Source of the DNA: a virus
Virus record (IMG/VR): IMGVR_UViG_3300042561_001754
Span: 1-43,994 of that record
DNA: 43,994 nucleotides
Strand: one strand, 5' to 3'
Below, piece after piece: positions 1 through 23,801 of this stretch. Each line of letters begins with the position of its first letter. The first letter of the stretch is position 1. The notes under the pieces are model-generated. The model made no database searches, was not told where the DNA came from, and saw nothing but the letters and a program-made list of their open reading frames with translations. The translations under genes were made by a program, and so were the position numbers.

Positions 1-143
1 TCGTTAATACTTTTTGCCAATCTTGTTCTAGCAAGTCCCTTGATGTTTAACTTTTCAACAGCTACTACATCATATTTTTTCAGTAGATTGTTTGCAGTTT
101 TAAAATGAAAATCTTTGCGGGTATCTGGCTTCTGTCGGTTAAG
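1..143 (-). pseudogene. tnpB: 5'-truncated tnpB fragment, runs off left edge
   Basis: The minus strand encodes about 47 residues including [17 protein letters not shown] and then [12 protein letters not shown]. This is the TnpB block around RuvC-II, where the E of VAVEKL is the expected catalytic glutamate. TnpB is the RNA-guided nuclease of IS200/IS605 and IS607 elements. The frame is closed upstream by a TAG at 144-146 and the tail gene starts at 155, so the N-terminal half is missing. The C-terminal half lies outside the window. It is an insertion-sequence relic next to a phage tail gene. Confidence 0.75.
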
Positions 144-154
144 CTAAAAATAAA

Positions 155-832
155 ATGCCAATAATCAGCAATCTCCTATCCCTCAATCCCGACTCACCCA
201 TTGAGTTATTCGAGATATCTAATTACAACTTGACCGCACCAACAGAAACCCTGTACATCTGCAATTATCCCGGCGTGTCCTTCGAGGGGCAGGAATACGC
301 CGCCATTGGCTGTGAATCTGAAGGTTTTGATCTTATCGGACAAGGACCAATTCCCACGCCACAACTAACAGTTTCCAATATCGGGCGTGTCGTCTCGACT
401 TGGCTAACTCAATGCAAAACCTCACCCAATTACCGACTAGAAGGAACGACGGTAAAGCGCCGCCTTACTCAACGGCAATTTTTAGATGGTGGTGAGAATG
501 AAGGCGCGGCAATCAAAGAACTGCCACAGCAAATATTCGTGATTGAGCAGTTAGTGTCAGAAACTTATCTCGCTGTACAATTCCGACTCGGATCGTCGTT
601 TGACGTTGAGGGCGTGACATTGCCAGCCCGTCCGTTACTGCGGTCATGCTCATGGCGGTATCGTTCCGCCGAGTGTGGGTATTTGGGGGGCGGGTTCACC
701 TTAAATAATGTGGCCACAGATAATCCGGCGTTGGATGTGTGCGCCAAAACTTTGATAGCGTGTGAAACTCGGTTTGGTTCTTACGCGAACTTGCCGTTTG
801 GGGGTGCGCCTGGGTTGAATACTTATAGTTAA
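155..832 (+). CDS. Phage minor tail protein L-like (tail-tip, Fe-S)
   Basis: 225 aa. It resembles lambda gpL, a tail-tip protein of long-tailed phages that coordinates an iron-sulfur cluster through four C-terminal cysteines. Visible here are C165, C174, C196 and C203, with spacing close to the lambda protein, and the local motif SCSWRYRSAECGYLGG. The N-terminal part, with segments such as PTPQLTVSNIG, fits the beta-rich half of the family. Length is close to gpL (about 230 aa). No other tail-tip gene (gpK, gpI, gpJ) is visible downstream, so the tail cluster is split or lies upstream of the window. Confidence 0.8.
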   Translation: MPIISNLLSLNPDSPIELFEISNYNLTAPTETLYICNYPGVSFEGQEYAAIGCESEGFDLIGQGPIPTPQLTVSNIGRVVSTWLTQCKTSPNYRLEGTTVKRRLTQRQFLDGGENEGAAIKELPQQIFVIEQLVSETYLAVQFRLGSSFDVEGVTLPARPLLRSCSWRYRSAECGYLGGGFTLNNVATDNPALDVCAKTLIACETRFGSYANLPFGGAPGLNTYS

Positions 833-855
833 TTTCCTCAATCGCATGACAACCA

Positions 856-896
856 TTGACAAAATCATCTGCTATAGTTAATGGTGTACAACTATA
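856..896 (+). promoter_or_regulatory. Promoter with 7-bp inverted-repeat operator for the first RHH-like gene
   Basis: A perfect -35 TTGACA lies at 856-861, with a weak -10 (TAATGG) 17 bases on. Overlapping it is TATAGTT (873-879), 10 bases, then AACTATA (890-896), a perfect 7-bp inverted repeat. The same promoter block recurs at 2896 upstream of the paralogous gene, and its core ATGGTGTACAACTATA recurs at 3162. Autoregulation by the encoded small protein is inferred. Confidence 0.6.
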
Positions 897-908
897 AAGG
901 ATAAAGCC

Positions 909-1124
909 ATGCGTCCATCACTTAACCGCACAACAGAGATAAAAGCCAGATGTACCAAGGAAGTCAAGGAACAGCTAACCAGAAAATTGATATCTGTCGG
1001 GTACAAACGTACTAAGGACGGTAACATAAACCCAAACTTTGTAGACTTCCTAGAAGCCTTAGCGGATAAGCCTTTGGGTTGGTTTGAAAAAAACTTTGAA
1101 AAAAATCTTGACAATCAAAAATAG
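909..1124 (+). CDS. Small ribbon-helix-helix-like regulator, copy 1
   Basis: 71 aa. The N-terminus (TTEIKARCTKEVKEQLTRKL) resembles the strand plus helix-turn-helix of CopG/Arc/MetJ repressors, and the C-terminus ends in an amphipathic segment. It is closely similar to the product at 2946-3161: the first 14 residues are identical and LADKPL..WF is shared. Upstream is an inverted-repeat operator, and a second promoter overlaps its stop codon, a layout shared by all three such genes in the window. It probably represses its own and the following transcript. The fold is inferred from pattern only. Confidence 0.6.
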   Translation: MRPSLNRTTEIKARCTKEVKEQLTRKLISVGYKRTKDGNINPNFVDFLEALADKPLGWFEKNFEKNLDNQK

Positions 1125-1136
1125 TTGGGGTATAAC
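1108..1136 (+). promoter_or_regulatory. Promoter overlapping the 3' end of the first RHH-like gene
   Basis: TTGACA (1108-1113), 17 bases, TATAAC (1131-1136). The -35 lies inside the coding end of the regulator gene. The flanking ATAGTT...AACTA (1121-1137) is a half-preserved version of the upstream operator. It would drive the gene at 1190 under control of the regulator. Confidence 0.6.
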
Positions 1137-1189
1137 TAAAGTATGGAGAGAGGGGGAAGACAAGCACCACTCACAAGCCCCTGGTTAAG

Positions 1190-2251
1190 TTGATGAAAAA
1201 TTTACAGGCTAGACAACAAACATTAATCAACTTAATCACCCGTGTGGGTGGCAAGCAAAACATCCAGAAATGGATGGATGAATTATTAAAAATTGATTGG
1301 AAACTTGAATCCACAGAGGTAAAACAAATGGAAACTACTTACAAAGGATATGAATTAGTAGAAATTGATTCTGATAGAGAACCCGGTGTTTATAAGAACG
1401 GAAGCCTTCTAACCGAAGGAAAATATTTTGAGGTTGAATCCTCTTATGATTCAGAAGGTGTCATCCTTCTGGACAAAGATGGAAAGGAATTTCCCTTTAA
1501 TATTGAACTGCCAGCGCTAACGGCAGCGCAAAAAACTGAGTATGCAACTCGGCTAGAAACTCAGAAAGCAATCGAATTTTCTATTGCTGCTGGTGAATGG
1601 AAGCAAGTCTTCCAAGAAGTATTTGTAGCTCAAACAGGTACAACAACAAAAGTAATTTCTTTTTGGAGACACCCTGTATATAGCGAACGGGAAGCATTAA
1701 AACTTCTAGGTGTTGAGATCGCTGACAACTGGAAAGCTTCTCAACAATTGATCAACCGCGATCAAAAAGTGTTCCAAAATTGGGTAGAACACTGGGAATT
1801 GAAAGCTACTAAAGCAGTACCTAAACACCCACTAGCTTCTAAAAAAGCGGCATATCCTGACCTAAAAGAATATTTCTATAGCTTGTATCCTGAGCTACGG
1901 GAATATGAAAGCTACATCAATATCTGTATGTGGCCAGTAGCCAATGCAGTTTTTGAATGTCGGAAGGGTGCAGTATCCTACGAGCAACTATCAGATGGTG
2001 TAGATAAATATATCTACAAATTTGACGAAGATAAGAAGGTAGACGCGATTGTTATATCTACACAAGAAGCTCTTGAAAGAGCAAAAGCTTTTAAGACCTA
2101 CGCTGATGCTAAAAGTGCAGAAGGACTAGCCAGAGAGGAAGCTAAAAAAGCACAGCAGCAAAAAGAGCGAGATTACGAGACTTACAAAAAGACTCAACAA
2201 GCCAAAAAAGGTATTATTAAGCCTTTCGAGAAATGGCTGGCAACAGTCTAG
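1190..2251 (+). CDS. Hypothetical protein with C-terminal coiled coil
   Basis: 353 aa from the ATG at 1190. An internal in-frame ATG at 1328 has a much better ribosome site (AGAGGT seven bases upstream) and would give 307 aa, so the first 46 residues may be absent. The middle contains a beta-rich stretch with KNGSLLTEGKYFEVES. The last 60 residues are highly charged and helical (EEAKKAQQQKERDYETYKK). No family recognised. It is transcribed from the promoter at 1108, and a hammerhead ribozyme begins at the base after its stop codon. Confidence 0.7.
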   Translation: MMKNLQARQQTLINLITRVGGKQNIQKWMDELLKIDWKLESTEVKQMETTYKGYELVEIDSDREPGVYKNGSLLTEGKYFEVESSYDSEGVILLDKDGKEFPFNIELPALTAAQKTEYATRLETQKAIEFSIAAGEWKQVFQEVFVAQTGTTTKVISFWRHPVYSEREALKLLGVEIADNWKASQQLINRDQKVFQNWVEHWELKATKAVPKHPLASKKAAYPDLKEYFYSLYPELREYESYINICMWPVANAVFECRKGAVSYEQLSDGVDKYIYKFDEDKKVDAIVISTQEALERAKAFKTYADAKSAEGLAREEAKKAQQQKERDYETYKKTQQAKKGIIKPFEKWLATV

Positions 2252-2308
2252 CCCACCTGATGATGGACGGCTGGCTACCGTCCGAAACTACCACCTGGTA
2301 GTCGTGGG
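2252..2308 (+). ncRNA. Type I hammerhead ribozyme candidate
   Basis: All hammerhead parts are present in order. Stem I 5' strand is CCCAC (2252-2256). The core CTGATGA is at 2257-2263. Stem II is GGACGG (2265-2270) with CCGTCC (2278-2283) and a 7-base loop. GAAA is at 2284-2287. Stem III is ACTACC (2287-2292) with GGTAGT (2297-2302) and a 4-base loop. The cleavage-site residue is C2303 (GTC). Stem I 3' strand is GTGGG (2304-2308), pairing perfectly with CCCAC. One extra base (T2264) sits between the core and stem II, a deviation from consensus. Stem I is open, so this is type I. Predicted cleavage follows C2303, 32 bases before the next ATG. CCCAC at 2322-2326 could compete for GTGGG. Confidence 0.82.
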
Positions 2309-2335
2309 AAGCTGTCACATACCCACCAAGAAACA

Positions 2336-2638
2336 ATGGGAAACAAGGCATTAGAAAGACCGCAAGAGTGGCATAGAAATAAATTCCGATCTCTGCAAGA
2401 GACATTACTTAAATGCTATCTGGTATTTGACTCAAAAGAAGACGGTGATGAGTATAACCGCTATTTCCCCTTCACAAAAGAAGGATTGAGAGATGCCCAA
2501 TCACTAGCCAAAAAGTGTGGTGAAAAAGTCCGCGCCACTGAGGAGAAGTTAAAATATCTCCTGCCTTACAGACTGCAAGATAGTATGCAGTCTCAGGAGT
2601 TCCAAGACTGGTGTAAAAAATGGAAAGTAGATGTCTAA
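2336..2638 (+). CDS. Hypothetical protein downstream of the hammerhead ribozyme
   Basis: 100 aa, charged and mostly helical, with a tryptophan-rich end (WCKKWKVDV). No family recognised. It is the first gene after the ribozyme, so its mRNA would begin at G2304 after self-cleavage, with a 32-base leader. No strong Shine-Dalgarno is seen (only AAGAAAC ahead of the ATG), so the leader structure may matter for translation. Confidence 0.6.
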   Translation: MGNKALERPQEWHRNKFRSLQETLLKCYLVFDSKEDGDEYNRYFPFTKEGLRDAQSLAKKCGEKVRATEEKLKYLLPYRLQDSMQSQEFQDWCKKWKVDV

Positions 2639-2644
2639 AGGTAT

Positions 2645-2697
2645 CCTGTGGGGTGTAATTCAAGCACCAGTCATTATTACCCCACGCTATCCACAGG
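2645..2697 (+). other. Mutually exclusive RNA hairpins
   Basis: Seven bases after the gene stop, CCTGTGG (2645-2651) can pair with CCACAGG (2691-2697), or the overlapping GTGGGGT (2648-2654) can pair with ACCCCAC (2679-2685). Both pairings are perfect but exclusive because they share GTGG. No known RNA class recognised. It could be an attenuator or a structured 3' end. Confidence 0.4.
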
Positions 2698-2739
2698 GGA
2701 TGCTAGGATATTCATAATTCAAGTTTTTACAAGTAAACG

Positions 2740-2776
2740 AAACACCTTCCCGGAGTGCATTTGGGGAGGTGTTTTA
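2740..2776 (+). terminator. Rho-independent terminator
   Basis: AAACACCTTCC (2740-2750) pairs with GGGAGGTGTTT (2764-2774), followed by a T-rich tract. It closes the 1190-2638 transcription unit. The rest of 2777-2895 holds nothing recognisable. Confidence 0.7.
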
Positions 2777-2895
2777 ATTTTAACACAAGCTTTTAACTAT
2801 AGCCATAGAGAATCAATAGATAGTTGCAGTGATTGATACTCCAAGTCCTGATTCTATGGGGATTCTTGGATATTTCCTCATTCGCACAGCAGCCA

Positions 2896-2935
2896 TTGAC
2901 AAAATCATCTGCTATGGTTAATGGTGTCCAACTAA
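2896..2935 (+). promoter_or_regulatory. Promoter/operator of the second RHH-like gene
   Basis: This is a near copy of the block at 856: the same TTGACA (2896-2901), then identical bases through ATCATCTGCTATGGTTAATGG apart from one change. The operator is degenerate (GGTGTCCAACTAAT), so repression may be weaker or differ in specificity. Confidence 0.5.
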
Positions 2936-2945
2936 TAGATAAAAT

Positions 2946-3161
2946 ATGCGTCCATCATTAAATAGAACAACAGAGATAAAAGCTAGATGCACTGAGACTT
3001 GTAAAGAGAGTCTATCCAGAAAACTAATATCTGTAGGGTATGCCCGCAGTTACGGGAAAACTGTAAACCCTGATTTAGTCAATTTTGTAGAAGTATTGGC
3101 AGACAAGCCATTGGAGTGGTTTCAAGAGAATTTTGCAAAAGTAGTTGACATCTCAGAATAG
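2946..3161 (+). CDS. Small ribbon-helix-helix-like regulator, copy 2
   Basis: 71 aa paralogue of the product of 909-1124, with an identical N-terminus (MRPSLNRTTEIKARCT), then a divergent middle and conserved LADKPLEWFQ. The DNA upstream is duplicated too, so promoter and gene were copied together. As with copy 1, a promoter overlaps its 3' end and drives the next gene. DNA binding is inferred. Confidence 0.6.
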   Translation: MRPSLNRTTEIKARCTETCKESLSRKLISVGYARSYGKTVNPDLVNFVEVLADKPLEWFQENFAKVVDISE

Positions 3162-3177
3162 ATGGTGTACAACTATA
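3145..3177 (+). promoter_or_regulatory. Promoter plus operator overlapping the end of RHH copy 2
   Basis: TTGACA (3145-3150), 17 bases, TACAAC (3168-3173). The operator core ATGGTGTACAACTATA (3162-3177), identical to the one upstream of copy 1, overlaps the -10. This is the same layout as at 1108 and 12432. Confidence 0.5.
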
Positions 3178-3215
3178 GATATGGAAAACAAGCAACTCAC
3201 AAATCCAAAAAAACA

Positions 3216-3467
3216 ATGAAAACAGCAAACGAAGTTCGCACAGCAAACGAAGTTCGCTCTAACGCCGCAAAGTATAACTCTGATCTGTCCCTGAAAGATG
3301 GATTTGAGTTGTGGGGAACTGCAACTGGCTCTATCCCCTACCATCGCCAATGGTGGATTTTGAAAGGGGATGAAATTATTGGTCATCTTGACCAAGGATG
3401 TTACGAAAATGCTGGGCAAGCTGGTCTTGAGCGCACCAACTGGGCAAAAAGACTAGGGTGTAGATGA
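3216..3467 (+). CDS. Hypothetical small protein
   Basis: 83 aa from the ATG at 3216. The open frame extends to 3162 but that part lies in the operator. A 12-codon leader ORF (3181-3219) starts next to the expected transcription start and ends in an ATGA overlap with this start, suggesting coupled translation. An internal ANEVR repeat is followed by a compact domain with WGTATGSIPYHRQWWILKGD. No family recognised. Confidence 0.55.
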   Translation: MKTANEVRTANEVRSNAAKYNSDLSLKDGFELWGTATGSIPYHRQWWILKGDEIIGHLDQGCYENAGQAGLERTNWAKRLGCR

Positions 3468-3475
3468 TCGCTCAC

Positions 3476-3510
3476 CGGAACTCCTTAGTTCCGCGATCGC
3501 TAAAGTGCAA
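3476..3510 (+). repeat. 35-bp direct repeat, copy 1 (contains HIP1)
   Basis: Identical to 3799-3833. It contains the palindrome GGAACTCCTTAGTTCC and GCGATCGC. Its 3' half (CGCTAAAGTGCAA, 3498-3510) can also fold on TTGTACTTTAGCG at 3525-3537. The two copies bracket a single small gene, like a cassette. Confidence 0.8.
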
Positions 3511-3582: not shown

Positions 3583-3789
3583 ATGAAAGTAATTAGAGTT
3601 AAGGTAGAAAATGCTGAAAAAGTGTTGGCAGCCATTCCCGGCGCAACACTGACACAAGCACCGGACTATGACTGGAATTGCGGATTGTCCGATGACATGA
3701 CCGCACCTGCGGTCAACATGGTCGGAGTCCAGTTGCCAGACGGTATGTCTGGCAATCAGGCGCATAAAATTATTCAGGCGATCGCCTAA
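3583..3789 (+). CDS. Hypothetical small protein inside a direct-repeat cassette
   Basis: 68 aa from the ATG at 3583 (an upstream ATG at 3505 is in frame but lies at the edge of the direct repeat). Starts MKVIRVKVENAEKVLAAIPG, resembling a small alpha/beta fold. No family recognised. It is flanked by identical 35-bp repeats at 3476 and 3799. Confidence 0.5.
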   Translation: MKVIRVKVENAEKVLAAIPGATLTQAPDYDWNCGLSDDMTAPAVNMVGVQLPDGMSGNQAHKIIQAIA

Positions 3790-3798
3790 GTACAATGT

Positions 3799-3833
3799 CG
3801 GAACTCCTTAGTTCCGCGATCGCTAAAGTGCAA
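3799..3833 (+). repeat. 35-bp direct repeat, copy 2
   Basis: Exact copy of 3476-3510, 323 bp downstream. Recombination between the copies would delete the enclosed gene cleanly. Confidence 0.8.
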
Positions 3834-4102: not shown

Positions 4103-4495
4103 CTATTTTGGTAACGTAATCGCAATTTGCCCAACCTTCTCAGACGCGATCGCTCCCATAGCCGCATCTATTTCCAACTCTATTTCCTGAATTTCTGGAT
4201 TCGTGGTGAGCGCTTCTAATTCTGCCTTCAATTCAGCGATACGGGAAGAGTTAGACTTTTGCAGATTTTCCCTGACAAATTCCAAGCGCTCCATCATTAT
4301 TTGAATTTCGTTTGTCGGCTTGGGTTTGACTGCCACCAATTTAAAAACAACTTTTGCACCATCAATTGTGTCTAACTGTCCAGTCTTACCGAAAGACATG
4401 GCATCTTCAATAGCCATTTTTTGAACCGACTTGATTTTCTCCGCGAGTTCTTTTTCTTGCTTCTTTAGTTGGATCAACAGTCTAAATGAGTCCAT
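4103..4495 (-). CDS. Coiled-coil hypothetical protein
   Basis: 130 aa with long charged helices at both ends (LKKQEKELAEKIKSVQ; ELKAELEALTTNPEIQEIELE) and a short beta-like middle (IDGAKVVFKLVAVKPKP). This resembles small phage-borne coiled-coil proteins near recombination genes, but no family is assigned. Confidence 0.6.
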   Translation of the reverse strand: MDSFRLLIQLKKQEKELAEKIKSVQKMAIEDAMSFGKTGQLDTIDGAKVVFKLVAVKPKPTNEIQIMMERLEFVRENLQKSNSSRIAELKAELEALTTNPEIQEIELEIDAAMGAIASEKVGQIAITLPK

Positions 4496-4648
4496 ATTAC
4501 CCCTGTTTAGTAAATCAATTGAATCGTGCCGATCGCGTGTCCCTGGTTTAAATGCTTGTTGGTTGGGAGTTTTAAGCGATCGCTATCCGCTCTTACCCCA
4601 AATAACGGCATACTTCCCCAACTGTAGAATCAATACTAGGCATAAATG

Positions 4649-4685
4649 AACCCACTAAATTGCATTAATTTTAGTGGGTTTTTAT
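4649..4685 (+). terminator. Strong hairpin terminator
   Basis: AACCCACTAAA (4649-4659) pairs with TTTAGTGGGTT (4670-4680), then TTTATTTATT. The T-run favours the plus strand, but the stem also lies just past the stop of the minus gene at 4708. Nothing else is recognised in 4496-4648. Confidence 0.7.
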
Positions 4686-4707
4686 TTATTGGCGCAATTC
4701 ACGAAAG

Positions 4708-5220
4708 TCACGCTATTCGCAAAAATGTATCTAACGTTTCTACCGGAACAGGCAGATGAGTTGAGAACTTCAGATTGTGCTTTTTTGCCCAACGTCTGAG
4801 AGTTTTAATTGTTGGAGACTTGCCGATTTGACGACTCAACCATGTGGGTACTTCCGAACCTTTAATGCCATCAATAATTACAGCATCACCTAATGCCTTA
4901 TCAAGTTCAGTTTTTAAAACAGGACTTGAGTTTAACCGTCTGATAATTTGTTGGATGGTCACACCAGTTTTGCATCCCATTGGTCTTTTAGTCCCGTTTT
5001 CCCGCTTTTGCTCAAACCGGATATAAGCCAACATCATCAACCACTGGCAATGAGTTTTGCTGATAACCGGTTCTTCTCCTTTTTTAAGCTTGCGAAAATC
5101 AGGGACTTGGCATATATCCTTGTACTTTCTCCAAGTGCGATCGCTTATCGGGTCGCCGTAGATGTGAGCGCAAGCAGCCCACACCCATCTTTGGGGATAT
5201 CCTTCAGGTTGGCTAGTCAT
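4708..5220 (-). CDS. Hypothetical protein with two HTH-like segments
   Basis: 170 aa. One segment (RTWRKYKDICQVPDFRKLKKGE) and another near the C-terminus (PTIKTLRRWAKKHNLKFST) look like helix-turn-helix-type DNA contacts. The N-terminus, QPEGYPQRWVWA, closely matches a 25-codon ORF upstream (5963-6040), evidence of local duplication. It is the last gene of a minus-strand operon and overlaps its upstream neighbour by 8 bases. Function unknown. Confidence 0.55.
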   Translation of the reverse strand: MTSQPEGYPQRWVWAACAHIYGDPISDRTWRKYKDICQVPDFRKLKKGEEPVISKTHCQWLMMLAYIRFEQKRENGTKRPMGCKTGVTIQQIIRRLNSSPVLKTELDKALGDAVIIDGIKGSEVPTWLSRQIGKSPTIKTLRRWAKKHNLKFSTHLPVPVETLDTFLRIA

Positions 5221-5452
5221 AATCCCTCACGTATTCAATTAAATCCAGTAGAAGTTTGTCGGAATAGGAGTCATCAGCGATCGCCACTATTACCTCGTCA
5301 ATATGCTCATTGACTAAATTTGAATGGCTGATTGATTTCATCCCTTTAAAAATTCTGATGAACTCAGGATTAGGGATATCATTTGCATCATTTGATCGTA
5401 GATGCTCTAATACCGTGCAAATAGTTGATTTCCAATTTGAATTATTTACCAT
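5213..5452 (-). CDS. Hypothetical small protein
   Basis: 79 aa from the ATG at 5452 (MVNNSNWKSTICTVLEHL), chosen because GGAGG/GGAGAA precede it. Acidic C-terminus (LLDLIEYVRDYD). It overlaps the HAD gene by 11 bases and the next gene by 8, so the operon is translationally coupled. Family unknown. Confidence 0.55.
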   Translation of the reverse strand: MVNNSNWKSTICTVLEHLRSNDANDIPNPEFIRIFKGMKSISHSNLVNEHIDEVIVAIADDSYSDKLLLDLIEYVRDYD

Positions 5453-5963
5453 TTCTCCAGTCCTCCGCCCACATAAATGGAATATTCGCATTAGCAGCAC
5501 ATTCTTGATCTTCGGATCTATCTCCCACCATCAAAACTTCCTCCGGGTTTTCCCTGGAATAAGAATATTTCATTCCAAAAACAATCATTCCTGGATTGGG
5601 TTTTCTGAAGTTCCCGTATTTTTTTGCATTACATAGTATTGCCATCCCGTGCATTTTTAATCCTTGCTGTGAGAGTCGAAACATAGTATCACCTCCATCT
5701 GTGCAGAATAACAGCAAACTCATTTGAGGTAACAATTTCAGGGTTTGACGTTGCTCCTCAAAGCAATTCTCTAGTGATTTATACCCAGCGATTACGCCAC
5801 CCTGATTTGTGACTCCAACTATCTTCCATCCCTGATAACGGGCGATCGCATCTTCCACCCCATCAATCAATTCTTGGTCATAGGGGTCATTGATGAAAGT
5901 TGCGCCAGATTTAGTCCTTCTGCAAGTTCCGTCAAGATCAAGAAATAGAATTTTATTGCTCAT
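5442..5963 (-). CDS. HAD-superfamily (HAD-IIIA/PNKP-like) phosphatase
   Basis: 173 aa with all four HAD motifs: LDLDGT (nucleophile D9, D11), VTNQGG (T52), KPNPGM (lysine) and GDRSEDQ (acidic metal ligands). The layout fits HAD-IIIA enzymes such as polynucleotide 3'-phosphatase and histidinol-phosphate or heptose-bisphosphate phosphatases. In a phage setting, DNA/RNA 3'-end repair is plausible but unproven. Its ATG overlaps the stop of the preceding short ORF (TAATG). Confidence 0.8.
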   Translation of the reverse strand: MSNKILFLDLDGTCRRTKSGATFINDPYDQELIDGVEDAIARYQGWKIVGVTNQGGVIAGYKSLENCFEEQRQTLKLLPQMSLLLFCTDGGDTMFRLSQQGLKMHGMAILCNAKKYGNFRKPNPGMIVFGMKYSYSRENPEEVLMVGDRSEDQECAANANIPFMWAEDWRNGK

Positions 5964-16737: not shown

Positions 16738-18606
16738 CTACTTTGTCAAGCGTTTCTTTTTAAATCTCTTGGGTTTTTGGTAAACCAATCTAGTGTTGTG
16801 ATATTTGACTTCTCCTAGTTCAAAACTACTATTATGTTTGTGATTCCTAGCCGCATTGGTGTCAGCTTGTTGCACCTGTTCAAATAACTCACATTCAGAG
16901 TTTTTGCAGACAAACTCATACTGTGATAATCGCTCACCTTTCTGATGACAACAATGGCATAGTTGAGAACTGTAGTTAGCAGGTGGTTCATGAAAACTAC
17001 CGCCTCTGTTCTCAACTTTTTGCTTAGTTTTAGCTTTTAAATCACCCAAGCATCTTTGTCTCATAATCCAATTTAAACCCCGTTTAGCAGACGCGCCGTT
17101 GTGAGCATATCCCACCCCTTCAGGCAATGCTTTAGCTTCTGTTTGTTTTAGGAGATTGGTTAACTGGGTATCCTCCCATGCTATATGCTCGTAAGTCCTG
17201 CTTAATCTAGTTGACATTTTATGATTAAAGGCATTAGAAGAATTAGCCCCACGTTCATGTAATCTGGTAATTTTATCTTGTATCTTAATCTCGTTTTTTG
17301 TCTTAGGTCTAGCACCTTTGCTTCCTGAATCTTTCCACTTTTTATCATTAATTAATTCAAGGTTATCAAGCCTTGATTGTAGTTCCTCTATATGGATTGA
17401 CACTCTTTCCCTGCTTAGATTTGGGAGGAATAACGCCCCGTGATCTGTCGCCACAATAGCCTGTACTCCAGGGTCAATCCCTACGCTTAAATTCTTTCCC
17501 ACTACGATTAACGAATCCTTGATTTGCTGTTCAATAAACTTGATTTTAGACTTAATATTTTCGTACTCTTGGCTGTCTTCTCCAAGCTCCTTTTTAACCT
17601 TGGGTAATTTCTTTGTTAAAACCGCTTTTTCTTCTTGCAATGGGTGAGCAAGGACAATATTGATATAGTAGCCAGATGCTTTTTTGGTTAGCATATACGC
17701 CCGAGGAAGACTGCTATCTAGGTTCAGTCTTTCCCCCCAACTTCTATCAGTAACGATTAAATTGCCAAATCCAGTAATTTCAACTGAATTATTCTTTATG
17801 TCTATCTTATTTGGTGGACATTGCTTATTAAATAAAGTGCTAATCTTATCAGCATCTTTTTTGAATTTTGGCTTCCTGCTGTTTATCCTTTTGGGGTCTA
17901 AAAATGCTAACCATGACTGTTTGAAAAACCCTAACAAGCCTCCGACGTAGTGAGATGAAACGGTTAAGTCTGGTAGGTTTTGCATCGCTCTTAACCCGTT
18001 TAACCCGTTCAAATTATCAAACTTCATTAAATCTATTAATTCCCTCCCCTCAAACTTACCACTGGGGAAAGTTTTGTATTTGTGGGGGATTATCTCTATC
18101 CGTTTCCAGGGGTAATCACCCTTAACTAATTTAGACCCTTTGACGTGAATAATCCCCTTTTTGGTTTTAATGGGAATATTAAAATTATCGTCCCGTTTCC
18201 AGTAACTTCCGCCTGTAGCAATCTGGCACGATAAGCCCTCGTAGCCACTGTTGCCAACTCGCAAAGGTACGGGAATAATATTTTCTAAGTCAAACGGCAA
18301 CCACCGGGAAAATATATCAAATTTGGCAACTAATTCCTGTTCTTTTTTGTTGAGTTTTGGCTTGTCTTTGCTGCGGTAGTAGTTCCTAACAAGCTGCTGT
18401 TGTTCCGGTTTTAGCTTCTCTAACTTTTCCGTCGCCTTAGCTAAATCTGCGCTCAACTTACCAGCCCAGTTGTACCAGGTGATGCAATGGTTATGCAATT
18501 GATTAGCCAATACCTGATTCCATAGCCATGTCAATTCTTCTAGGTAGCGATCGCATGATTGCGCCTGTTCAGCAAGAAGTTTGACCTTGATTTTAATAGT
18601 TTTCAT
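16738..18606 (-). CDS. Single-effector type V (V-U-like) Cas12/TnpB-family nuclease
   Basis: 622 aa from the ATG at 18606; a TTG five codons upstream is also in frame. The RuvC-like core is intact: SVGIDPGVQAIVATDHG (D about 378), EHIAWEDTQL (E about 478) and QADTNAARNH (D about 582). A zinc-ribbon-like segment (LCHCCHQKG ... CKNSECELF) lies between the last two. The N-terminal ~370 residues are not TnpB-like in length and would be the guide-binding lobes. It lies next to a CRISPR array and an anti-repeat RNA, with no Cas1/Cas2. Unlike Cas12k (V-K), the catalytic residues are present and no Tn7 genes are near. Size and host best fit V-U2 (c2c8), but the subtype is uncertain. It probably cleaves or binds DNA under crRNA guidance. 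Confidence 0.8.
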   Translation of the reverse strand: MKTIKIKVKLLAEQAQSCDRYLEELTWLWNQVLANQLHNHCITWYNWAGKLSADLAKATEKLEKLKPEQQQLVRNYYRSKDKPKLNKKEQELVAKFDIFSRWLPFDLENIIPVPLRVGNSGYEGLSCQIATGGSYWKRDDNFNIPIKTKKGIIHVKGSKLVKGDYPWKRIEIIPHKYKTFPSGKFEGRELIDLMKFDNLNGLNGLRAMQNLPDLTVSSHYVGGLLGFFKQSWLAFLDPKRINSRKPKFKKDADKISTLFNKQCPPNKIDIKNNSVEITGFGNLIVTDRSWGERLNLDSSLPRAYMLTKKASGYYINIVLAHPLQEEKAVLTKKLPKVKKELGEDSQEYENIKSKIKFIEQQIKDSLIVVGKNLSVGIDPGVQAIVATDHGALFLPNLSRERVSIHIEELQSRLDNLELINDKKWKDSGSKGARPKTKNEIKIQDKITRLHERGANSSNAFNHKMSTRLSRTYEHIAWEDTQLTNLLKQTEAKALPEGVGYAHNGASAKRGLNWIMRQRCLGDLKAKTKQKVENRGGSFHEPPANYSSQLCHCCHQKGERLSQYEFVCKNSECELFEQVQQADTNAARNHKHNSSFELGEVKYHNTRLVYQKPKRFKKKRLTK

Positions 18607-18713
18607 TGGGAATAATATCAATGTGGGTGTACAAGACCTACAGCCAGTGGTGAATCGGTGCTACCAACACCATCACGCGACTGGATAATATTGTATCCTA
18701 AGTTATTGAAAAA

Positions 18714-23048: not shown

Positions 23049-23801
23049 CTAAAACAAAGATAATTGCAGTGGCTTCTCAAGTGTTTTTGGTGAAACAGGC
23101 ATTACGGGAATTTGCACTACTTCCGTAATTGGCGGCGCGTCTTGCACTTGGGCAACATAGCTAATTAATTGCATTAATCTCGTTCCCCTAATACGCGCTA
23201 TCCGTTCCTCAAGTTCCCCATATTGATCAAAAACTTTCATTAGGCGATCGCTTCGATAATCTCCAGAATCAATTTCAGACTTACTAAAACCTAATCCCAT
23301 CAATTGTTCGTAAATTTCCAAATATTCTCTAAATCTATTGTCAATATAAATAGTGTCGAGTTCAAATTGCACAGGGAATAAATCTCTGTTTTGACCTTCT
23401 AACGCCCAAGGGATAATATGTTTTTGCCCCGATTCTGCTATGGCTATAGTAAAAGGCGGTTCAGGTGGATTTAACAAGTATTGCCTAATTCCCACCCTAG
23501 TCAGCAAGTTTTTAACTATTGAAAAAGTATCCTTGCCTTCTGTATATTCACCTTCAACGACAGGCGCAATTAGCTTATCACCCTGATAAACCCTGGACAA
23601 AGAACGTCCCCACAGCTTTGACCATTTATTTTTACCTTCATTCCAGTACCAAAGCTGCTTTTGATTACCGGAAATTGTAGAGTGACAGCGATCGCATAGC
23701 ACTTTAGACTCTGGACATTTAGCTGACGAGTGCATCGTGAATGTATTGGATAATTCCAAAGCATTAGATCCGGGTTTAGCGCAAAGGTAGCAATTAGACA
23801 T
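23049..23801 (-). CDS. csf1: Type IV CRISPR Csf1-like (Cas8-like) protein
   Basis: 250 aa from the ATG at 23801, with AGGT upstream; it overlaps the cysH-like stop by 8 bases. Zinc-finger cysteines C4, C7 (CYLC), C29, C36, C39 (CDRC) at the N-terminus match Csf1, the large-subunit-like protein of type IV effector complexes. The middle holds WGRSLSRVYQGDKLIAPVVE, and the C-terminus is helical and ends LQLSLF. Last gene of the operon. The assignment rests mainly on the Cys pattern plus context. Confidence 0.7.
   Translation of the reverse strand: MSNCYLCAKPGSNALELSNTFTMHSSAKCPESKVLCDRCHSTISGNQKQLWYWNEGKNKWSKLWGRSLSRVYQGDKLIAPVVEGEYTEGKDTFSIVKNLLTRVGIRQYLLNPPEPPFTIAIAESGQKHIIPWALEGQNRDLFPVQFELDTIYIDNRFREYLEIYEQLMGLGFSKSEIDSGDYRSDRLMKVFDQYGELEERIARIRGTRLMQLISYVAQVQDAPPITEVVQIPVMPVSPKTLEKPLQLSLF

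Follow-up and report, generated by a model that had tools for sequence, protein, structure and literature searches.

The window analysed here, a 43,994-nucleotide (nt) stretch of viral DNA (IMG/VR record IMGVR_UViG_3300042561_001754), carries a complete type I hammerhead motif on its + strand (positions 2252–2308), placed flush behind the stop codon of one gene and shortly ahead of the start of another. The motif looks genuine and, judged from its sequence, is a variant form of a familiar ribozyme type. We consider it reasonably likely that this hammerhead cuts a polycistronic mRNA, and that the freed 5′ strand of the downstream product would then form a terminal hairpin with a complementary arm in its own leader. 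The parts of this reading differ in strength: activity in vivo is very probable, mRNA separation is the likely role of the ribozyme, and we give roughly even odds to the product hairpin being the finishing step. Hammerheads between phage genes are already known, and the leader arm is the most interesting part here.

Anatomy and gene context of the hammerhead

The 5′ strand of stem I (CCCAC, 2252–2256) abuts the upstream stop codon (TAG, 2249–2251) and pairs with the 3′ strand (GUGGG, 2304–2308), which is the predicted new 5′ end of the downstream mRNA. Between the two strands lie the catalytic core CUGAUGA (C3–A9, 2257–2263; placed by direct reading and by a covariance model), an extra U (T2264) between A9 and stem II, stem II itself (2265–2283; GGACGG at 2265–2270 with CCGUCC at 2278–2283, 6 bp, 7-nt loop CUGGCUA at 2271–2277), the core residues G12, A13 and A14 (GAA, 2284–2286, read directly), stem III (2287–2302; ACUACC with GGUAGU, 6 bp, 4-nt loop ACCU), and C17 (C2303). 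From the position of C17 in the hammerhead alignment, cleavage would fall between 2303 and 2304. Three helices surround the CUGANGA and GAA core elements, the A15.1–U16.1 pair (A2287–T2302) and an H at position 17 (C2303) are present, and stem I is open while stems II and III are loop-capped, as in type I. The core departs from the uninterrupted consensus, which is usual and not strictly required, by the insertion of T2264 after A9. The first-pass annotation had described this order of elements, with perfect helices beginning right after a stop codon, and its reading is correct base for base.

Tertiary contacts are also indicated by comparison. Across the phage set, loop II pairs with the leader just after stem I in one register only, with at least four of five Watson–Crick pairs in 32 of 66 cases (permutation mean 18, maximum 25 of 1,000) and in 8 of 12 cases in fresh data (4.5 expected). 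The corresponding pseudoknot strands in the window, UGGCU (2272–2276) and AGCUG (2310–2314), both assigned from covariation across phage hammerheads, form only three Watson–Crick pairs of five, the other two being G–U, which we count against our reading. We also considered an outer extension of stem I (ACAG at 2243–2246 with CUGU at 2312–2315, + strand), and set it aside because its 3′ side overlaps the pseudoknot strand in the leader and relatives do not generally share it.

Both flanking open reading frames (ORFs) and the ribozyme are on one strand (+). The upstream ORF (1193–2251) encodes 352 aa from an ATG (353 aa from a TTG at 1190), and the downstream ORF (2336–2638) encodes 100 aa from the ATG at 2336. 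The sequence bears out the earlier proposal that the ribozyme is placed to separate two mRNAs and to leave a 32-nt leader (2304–2335). Neither flanking gene matched a family in Pfam or PHROGs, no relatives of either protein were found among named phages, and no relatives of the ribozyme region were found among plasmids. Homologues of the upstream gene, judged by a shared C-terminus (EKWLxT), nonetheless precede a hammerhead in six other loci (L002, L026, L084, L134, L136, and L137), and homologues of the downstream gene in L026 and L137 start 31 nt after the cleavage site. This arrangement is common: among 90 clusters with enough flank, an ORF of at least 60 aa ends within −12 to +30 nt of the ribozyme in 79 (random, 10.7%), a downstream ORF of at least 40 aa with a Shine–Dalgarno-like site follows in 76 (random, 22.6%), and the two occur together in 66 (3.4% of random positions). 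The two-sided context fits the published suggestion that hammerheads divide long phage transcripts.

Other genes of the record include those for a tail tip protein L (Pfam PF05100; 155–832), for a portal protein, and for the large terminase. The octamer GCGATCGC, which we take to be HIP1, a mark of cyanobacterial DNA, occurs 30 times in the window against 0.2 expected; given this abundance, the host of the phage is probably a cyanobacterium. All 30 sites lie from position 3493 onward, and the first 3.5 kb (1–3492), which bears the ribozyme, has none. A repeated module (832–1124 and 2872–3161; 63 nt at 89% and 47 nt at 85% identity), each copy with a 71-aa ORF, brackets the ribozyme-bearing gene pair. 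Elsewhere in the window are an exact 35-nt repeat (3476–3510 and 3799–3833) with a short hairpin and GCGATCGC, and a TnpB-like transposase with a Cas12f1-like TNB domain (16738–18621, − strand).

Several other loci are unusual in their own right. Locus L130 (3,936 bases of phage DNA; e.g., 2806–2875 and 3609–3678) contains two Pistol ribozymes (found with Rfam) and five hammerheads (found with the descriptor), so that self-cleaving ribozymes separate several successive small genes. L137 carries tandemly duplicated gene–hammerhead units (4480–5480), with hammerheads at 4545, 5002, and 5348 separating related small genes. L154 (4896–4950) and L155 (3160–3215), which are MAGs named as different phyla, are nearly identical over the hammerhead, its leader, and the first part of the gene that follows (about 315 aa), a unit that looks like a mobile element. 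In L153, from Aneurinibacillus aneurinilyticus ATCC 12856, a hammerhead at 699–771 (47.1 bits with model R1, described below) lies upstream of a 217-aa ORF, and its presence in a culture-collection strain provides a handle for bench work.

Searches, covariation, and the extra nucleotide

A strict type I descriptor run on both strands of the window gave a single match, at 2252–2308. On 1,500 Markov-simulated windows, the same descriptor gave 41 matches with minimal stems and one with all stems of at least 5 bp. The Rfam hammerhead models, which the first-pass annotation had put forward as a check, failed here: no Rfam family reached the motif at its gathering score or, in a 271-base stretch, at E-values up to 10, and the search found nothing at 2252–2308 and a 14.4-bit match at 23717, below the cut-off. 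Relatives likewise fall below the curated cut-off. None of ten loci with descriptor hammerheads reached an Rfam gathering score, and RF00163 (Hammerhead_1) scored relatives at up to 26.9 bits against a cut-off of 34, with none of six records above it; it gave 26.9 bits in L125 and 24 bits in L026 (record G007), and left the window copy unreported. We attribute the missing match to the models and not to the fold; Rfam misses a common class of phage hammerheads.

We relied on a covariance model (R1) built from 35 aligned hammerheads of other phages, with the clade of the window left out. R1 recovered 2252–2308 at 62.2 bits (E = 5.4e-17) as its sole match in 43,994 bases, which supports the earlier identification of a type I hammerhead between two phage genes. 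The same model found 26 hammerheads in 11 related phage records, with at least one per record and up to five in one; by sequence comparison, the window hammerhead belongs to a common phage type. The hammerhead lists required stem lengths summing to at least 14, leaving second copies in L104, L122, and L125 (matches to R1) uncounted, and sequences more than 80% alike were reduced to one in cluster counts.

In the least biased covariation test, candidates were chosen by core and loop II only. Of 120 distinct stretches among the matches listed, the rest of the fold (stem III, the cleavage base, and stem I) is completed in 111, compared with 8 of 2,400 with shuffled flanks. In the alignment of descriptor-chosen rows, both sides change in 10 of 12 counted pairs; pairing there is 100% by construction, and the set chosen by core and loop II is the unbiased test. 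A lack of covariation among homologues, which the first-pass annotation had named as grounds for rejecting the motif, is thus not what was found. L002, the closest relative that differs in sequence, has stem III shortened by one base pair, with a base missing from each strand, and the helix is kept. Compared with shuffled sequences, the 95-nt stretch as a whole gave a weak folding signal (z = −0.99), and 2252–2303, the ribozyme part, in which stems II and III form, gave a good one (z = −2.70).

The extra base after the core, T2264, was remarked on in the first-pass annotation, and cluster comparison identifies it as a natural form. Across 86 phage clusters, the position after A9 has no insert in 46, a single U in 38, an A in one, and UU in one. 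The first stem I pair is C–G or U–A in 37 of the 39 clusters with one inserted base and A–U in 33 of the 46 without an insert, and the same split recurs in 25 fresh clusters (12/12 and 9/13). An insert at this place is found in 40 of the 86 clusters, whose hammerheads are complete in other respects, so we treat T2264 as a variant and not as a disqualifier; on these comparative grounds, the extra U recurs regularly and goes with the identity of the first stem I pair. A viroid hammerhead with an extra nucleotide in its core was reportedly described by De la Pena and Flores in JBC in 2001. That base reportedly likewise lies between A9 and G10.1, but is an A in one viroid, whereas the phages here have U in 38 of 86 clusters.

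The leader arm and the cleaved end

A second CCCAC (2322–2326, + strand) is the complement of the new 5′ end and defines a predicted product hairpin (2304–2308/2322–2326). The first-pass annotation had proposed that this arm could pair with GUGGG and switch stem I off; the pairing is conserved and covarying, while an off-switch acting before cleavage is less supported. To assess the pairing, we searched each leader between +9 and +45 for a stretch complementary to the 5′ end of its own product. At least four Watson–Crick pairs were found in 46 of 86 cases in a first set (permutation mean 21.75, maximum 32 of 300), and the excess was small when G–U pairs were allowed (66/86 versus 56.5, permutation maximum 67). 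In the fixed register pairing nt 1–4 with nt 9–12, the arm occurred in 25 of 98 cases versus 8.4 (none of 2,000 permutations as high), and in 7 of 35 clusters at 70% versus 2.6 expected (P = 0.005, with permutations that leave some relatedness). Fresh data gave the arm in 14 of 25 clusters versus 7.4 (P = 0.006); in the fixed register, the count was 6 versus 2.6 (P = 0.022). Pooled and permuted within insert class, a complement of at least 4 nt was present in 62 of 123 phage hammerheads versus 32.1 (maximum 45 of 300), the 4-nt arm being absent from the other 61. Control regions of the pooled hammerheads at +60, +120, −45, and −100 showed no significant complement excess. Among the pairing registers scanned, a 4-nt loop was clearest, with weaker signals elsewhere.

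The signal is also seen in the clade of the window, which was picked by its stem II/loop pattern and a product starting GTGGG or GCGGT (L124, L132, L138, and L151–L155 fall outside it). The full 5-nt complement is present in 19 of 21 distinct cases (0.9 expected), with a loop of 12–20 nt, and both copies in L135 lack the leader arm. GCGGT/ACCGC replaces GTGGG/CCCAC in two members, and in seven the ribozyme arm has a G–U pair but the leader arm is fully Watson–Crick. Product nt 1 and nt 12 lie outside the pseudoknot as tested; hence, the pseudoknot does not explain their covariation. Over its first 42 nt, the product shows no folding advantage over shuffled sequences (z = +0.57), 142 of 200 of which did as well. 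We accordingly do not take folding energy to prove the product hairpin, the case for which rests on comparison and not on stability.

A sequence of events consistent with these observations can be outlined. Stem I, stem II, and the pseudoknot between loop II and the leader would fold the core as the transcript emerges, and the cut would fall after C2303 in the intergenic gap of a co-transcribed gene pair. The upstream mRNA would end in the ribozyme with a 2′,3′-cyclic phosphate, and the downstream mRNA would start with a 5′-OH GUGGG. Being transcribed later than the cleavage strand, the leader arm (CCCAC) could then capture GUGGG in a 5′-terminal hairpin that would pull the products apart, block re-ligation, and shield the 5′-OH end from 5′-dependent decay. 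In glmS mRNA, the 5′-OH end produced by ribozyme cleavage is attacked by RNase J1 (PMC3997798), a fate that a hairpin at such an end would oppose. The product hairpin is estimated at −6.0 kcal/mol and is intramolecular; stem I is estimated at −6.8 kcal/mol, bimolecular at standard state. Since stem I would join two molecules after the cut, the hairpin should win at cellular concentrations.

The same pairing could instead act before cleavage, with the leader arm competing with stem I in the intact transcript and cutting conditional on slow transcription, a protein, or the absence of a ribosome at the upstream stop. By nearest-neighbour energies, the precursor could indeed adopt the hairpin in place of stem I, a point we count against the product hairpin: the ribozyme fold (−23.9 kcal/mol) and the leader-hairpin fold (−23.7 kcal/mol) are nearly equal when neither the pseudoknot nor the outer stem is included, and a conserved, covarying arm would be expected of a switch as well. 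The pseudoknot and the outer stem (−26.7 kcal/mol for the precursor ribozyme fold with the latter) would, however, favour the ribozyme, and no ligand-like domain lies between ribozyme and arm. Moreover, stem I is finished by the time transcription reaches the arm, and cleavage should therefore precede any pairing with it. An arm that is transcribed last, and that complements ends whose ribozyme arm has only G–U, fits a hairpin formed after cleavage better than a switch, and we regard the switch as unlikely.

Only slightly less probable is that the hammerhead separates the two mRNAs and nothing more, the arm persisting through shared ancestry or because it serves ribosome binding. The gene context suits this explanation, as do the proposal already published for prophages (Perreault et al. 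2011, PMC3088659) and the half of the set without an arm. Common descent or ribosome binding would not, however, account for product nt 1–2 covarying with nt 11–12, for the variable spacing of the arm, or for G–U pairs that appear in the ribozyme arm and not in the leader arm. Hammerheads might alternatively mark the boundaries of exchangeable gene cassettes, where shared sequence promotes recombination and an inserted gene brings a clean mRNA end. Tandem gene–hammerhead units in L137, the presence of several hammerheads per record in other phages, and the retention of the outer genes by the window, L026, and L137, with different numbers of units between them, all point this way; such boundaries would explain spread but not why the leader arm is conserved, and we consider this account improbable. 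That the motif is a chance or decayed one, as the missing Rfam match might suggest, is very hard to reconcile with the simulated windows, the shuffled flanks (8/2,400), the R1 E-value (5.4e-17), and the intact hammerhead of L002 with its paired loss in stem III.

Comparison with known ribozymes

Cleavage followed by a product hairpin remains our preferred reading for the window. Its extension to phages at large, in which hammerheads would widely serve as insulators with a strand swap, the cut separating mRNAs and the hairpin, in many cases four base pairs around a 4-nt loop, capping the 5′ end, is put forward tentatively, at a little under even odds. Bacterial and prophage hammerheads, including intergenic phage copies, clusters, and pseudoknots, have been known since 2011, and Perreault et al. 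proposed that long phage transcripts are processed by them (PMC3088659). The window hammerhead resembles those in its core, its three helices, and its intergenic position in a phage; several copies per locus are a shared feature of the two sets, and pseudoknots were reported there in all three hammerhead types (PMC3088659). The window hammerhead goes beyond what the consulted part of that paper describes in having an inserted base between A9 and stem II that goes with the identity of the first stem I pair, as well as a leader arm that could re-pair the cleaved 5′ end. Hammerheads have also been reported as enriched near Mu-like phage genes (PMC10085705), and their roles in bacteria and phages have been called an open question (PMC6155905). 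In a literature search by title or abstract, with subscription journals mostly outside it and hence weak as evidence of novelty, we found no product hairpin in phage hammerheads, and such a leader-arm hairpin appears undescribed so far.

If correct, a strand-swap insulator would give a concrete role to phage hammerheads, whose function a 2017 review leaves open. A conserved arm able to capture the freed 5′ end again offers a specific clue, predicting both product release and a capped 5′ end. The closest parallel is synthetic: RiboJ combines a hammerhead with a 23-nt hairpin, and the cut mRNA begins with a hairpin, which its users propose to be stabilising (PMC6206723). RiboJ was engineered from a satellite-virus ribozyme and its 23-nt hairpin is a separate addition (PMC6206723, PMC7536230), whereas in the window one arm of the hairpin, predicted here from comparison, is the ribozyme's own stem I strand. 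The window system may be a natural counterpart of this insulator, an evolved version of what RiboJ achieves by design.
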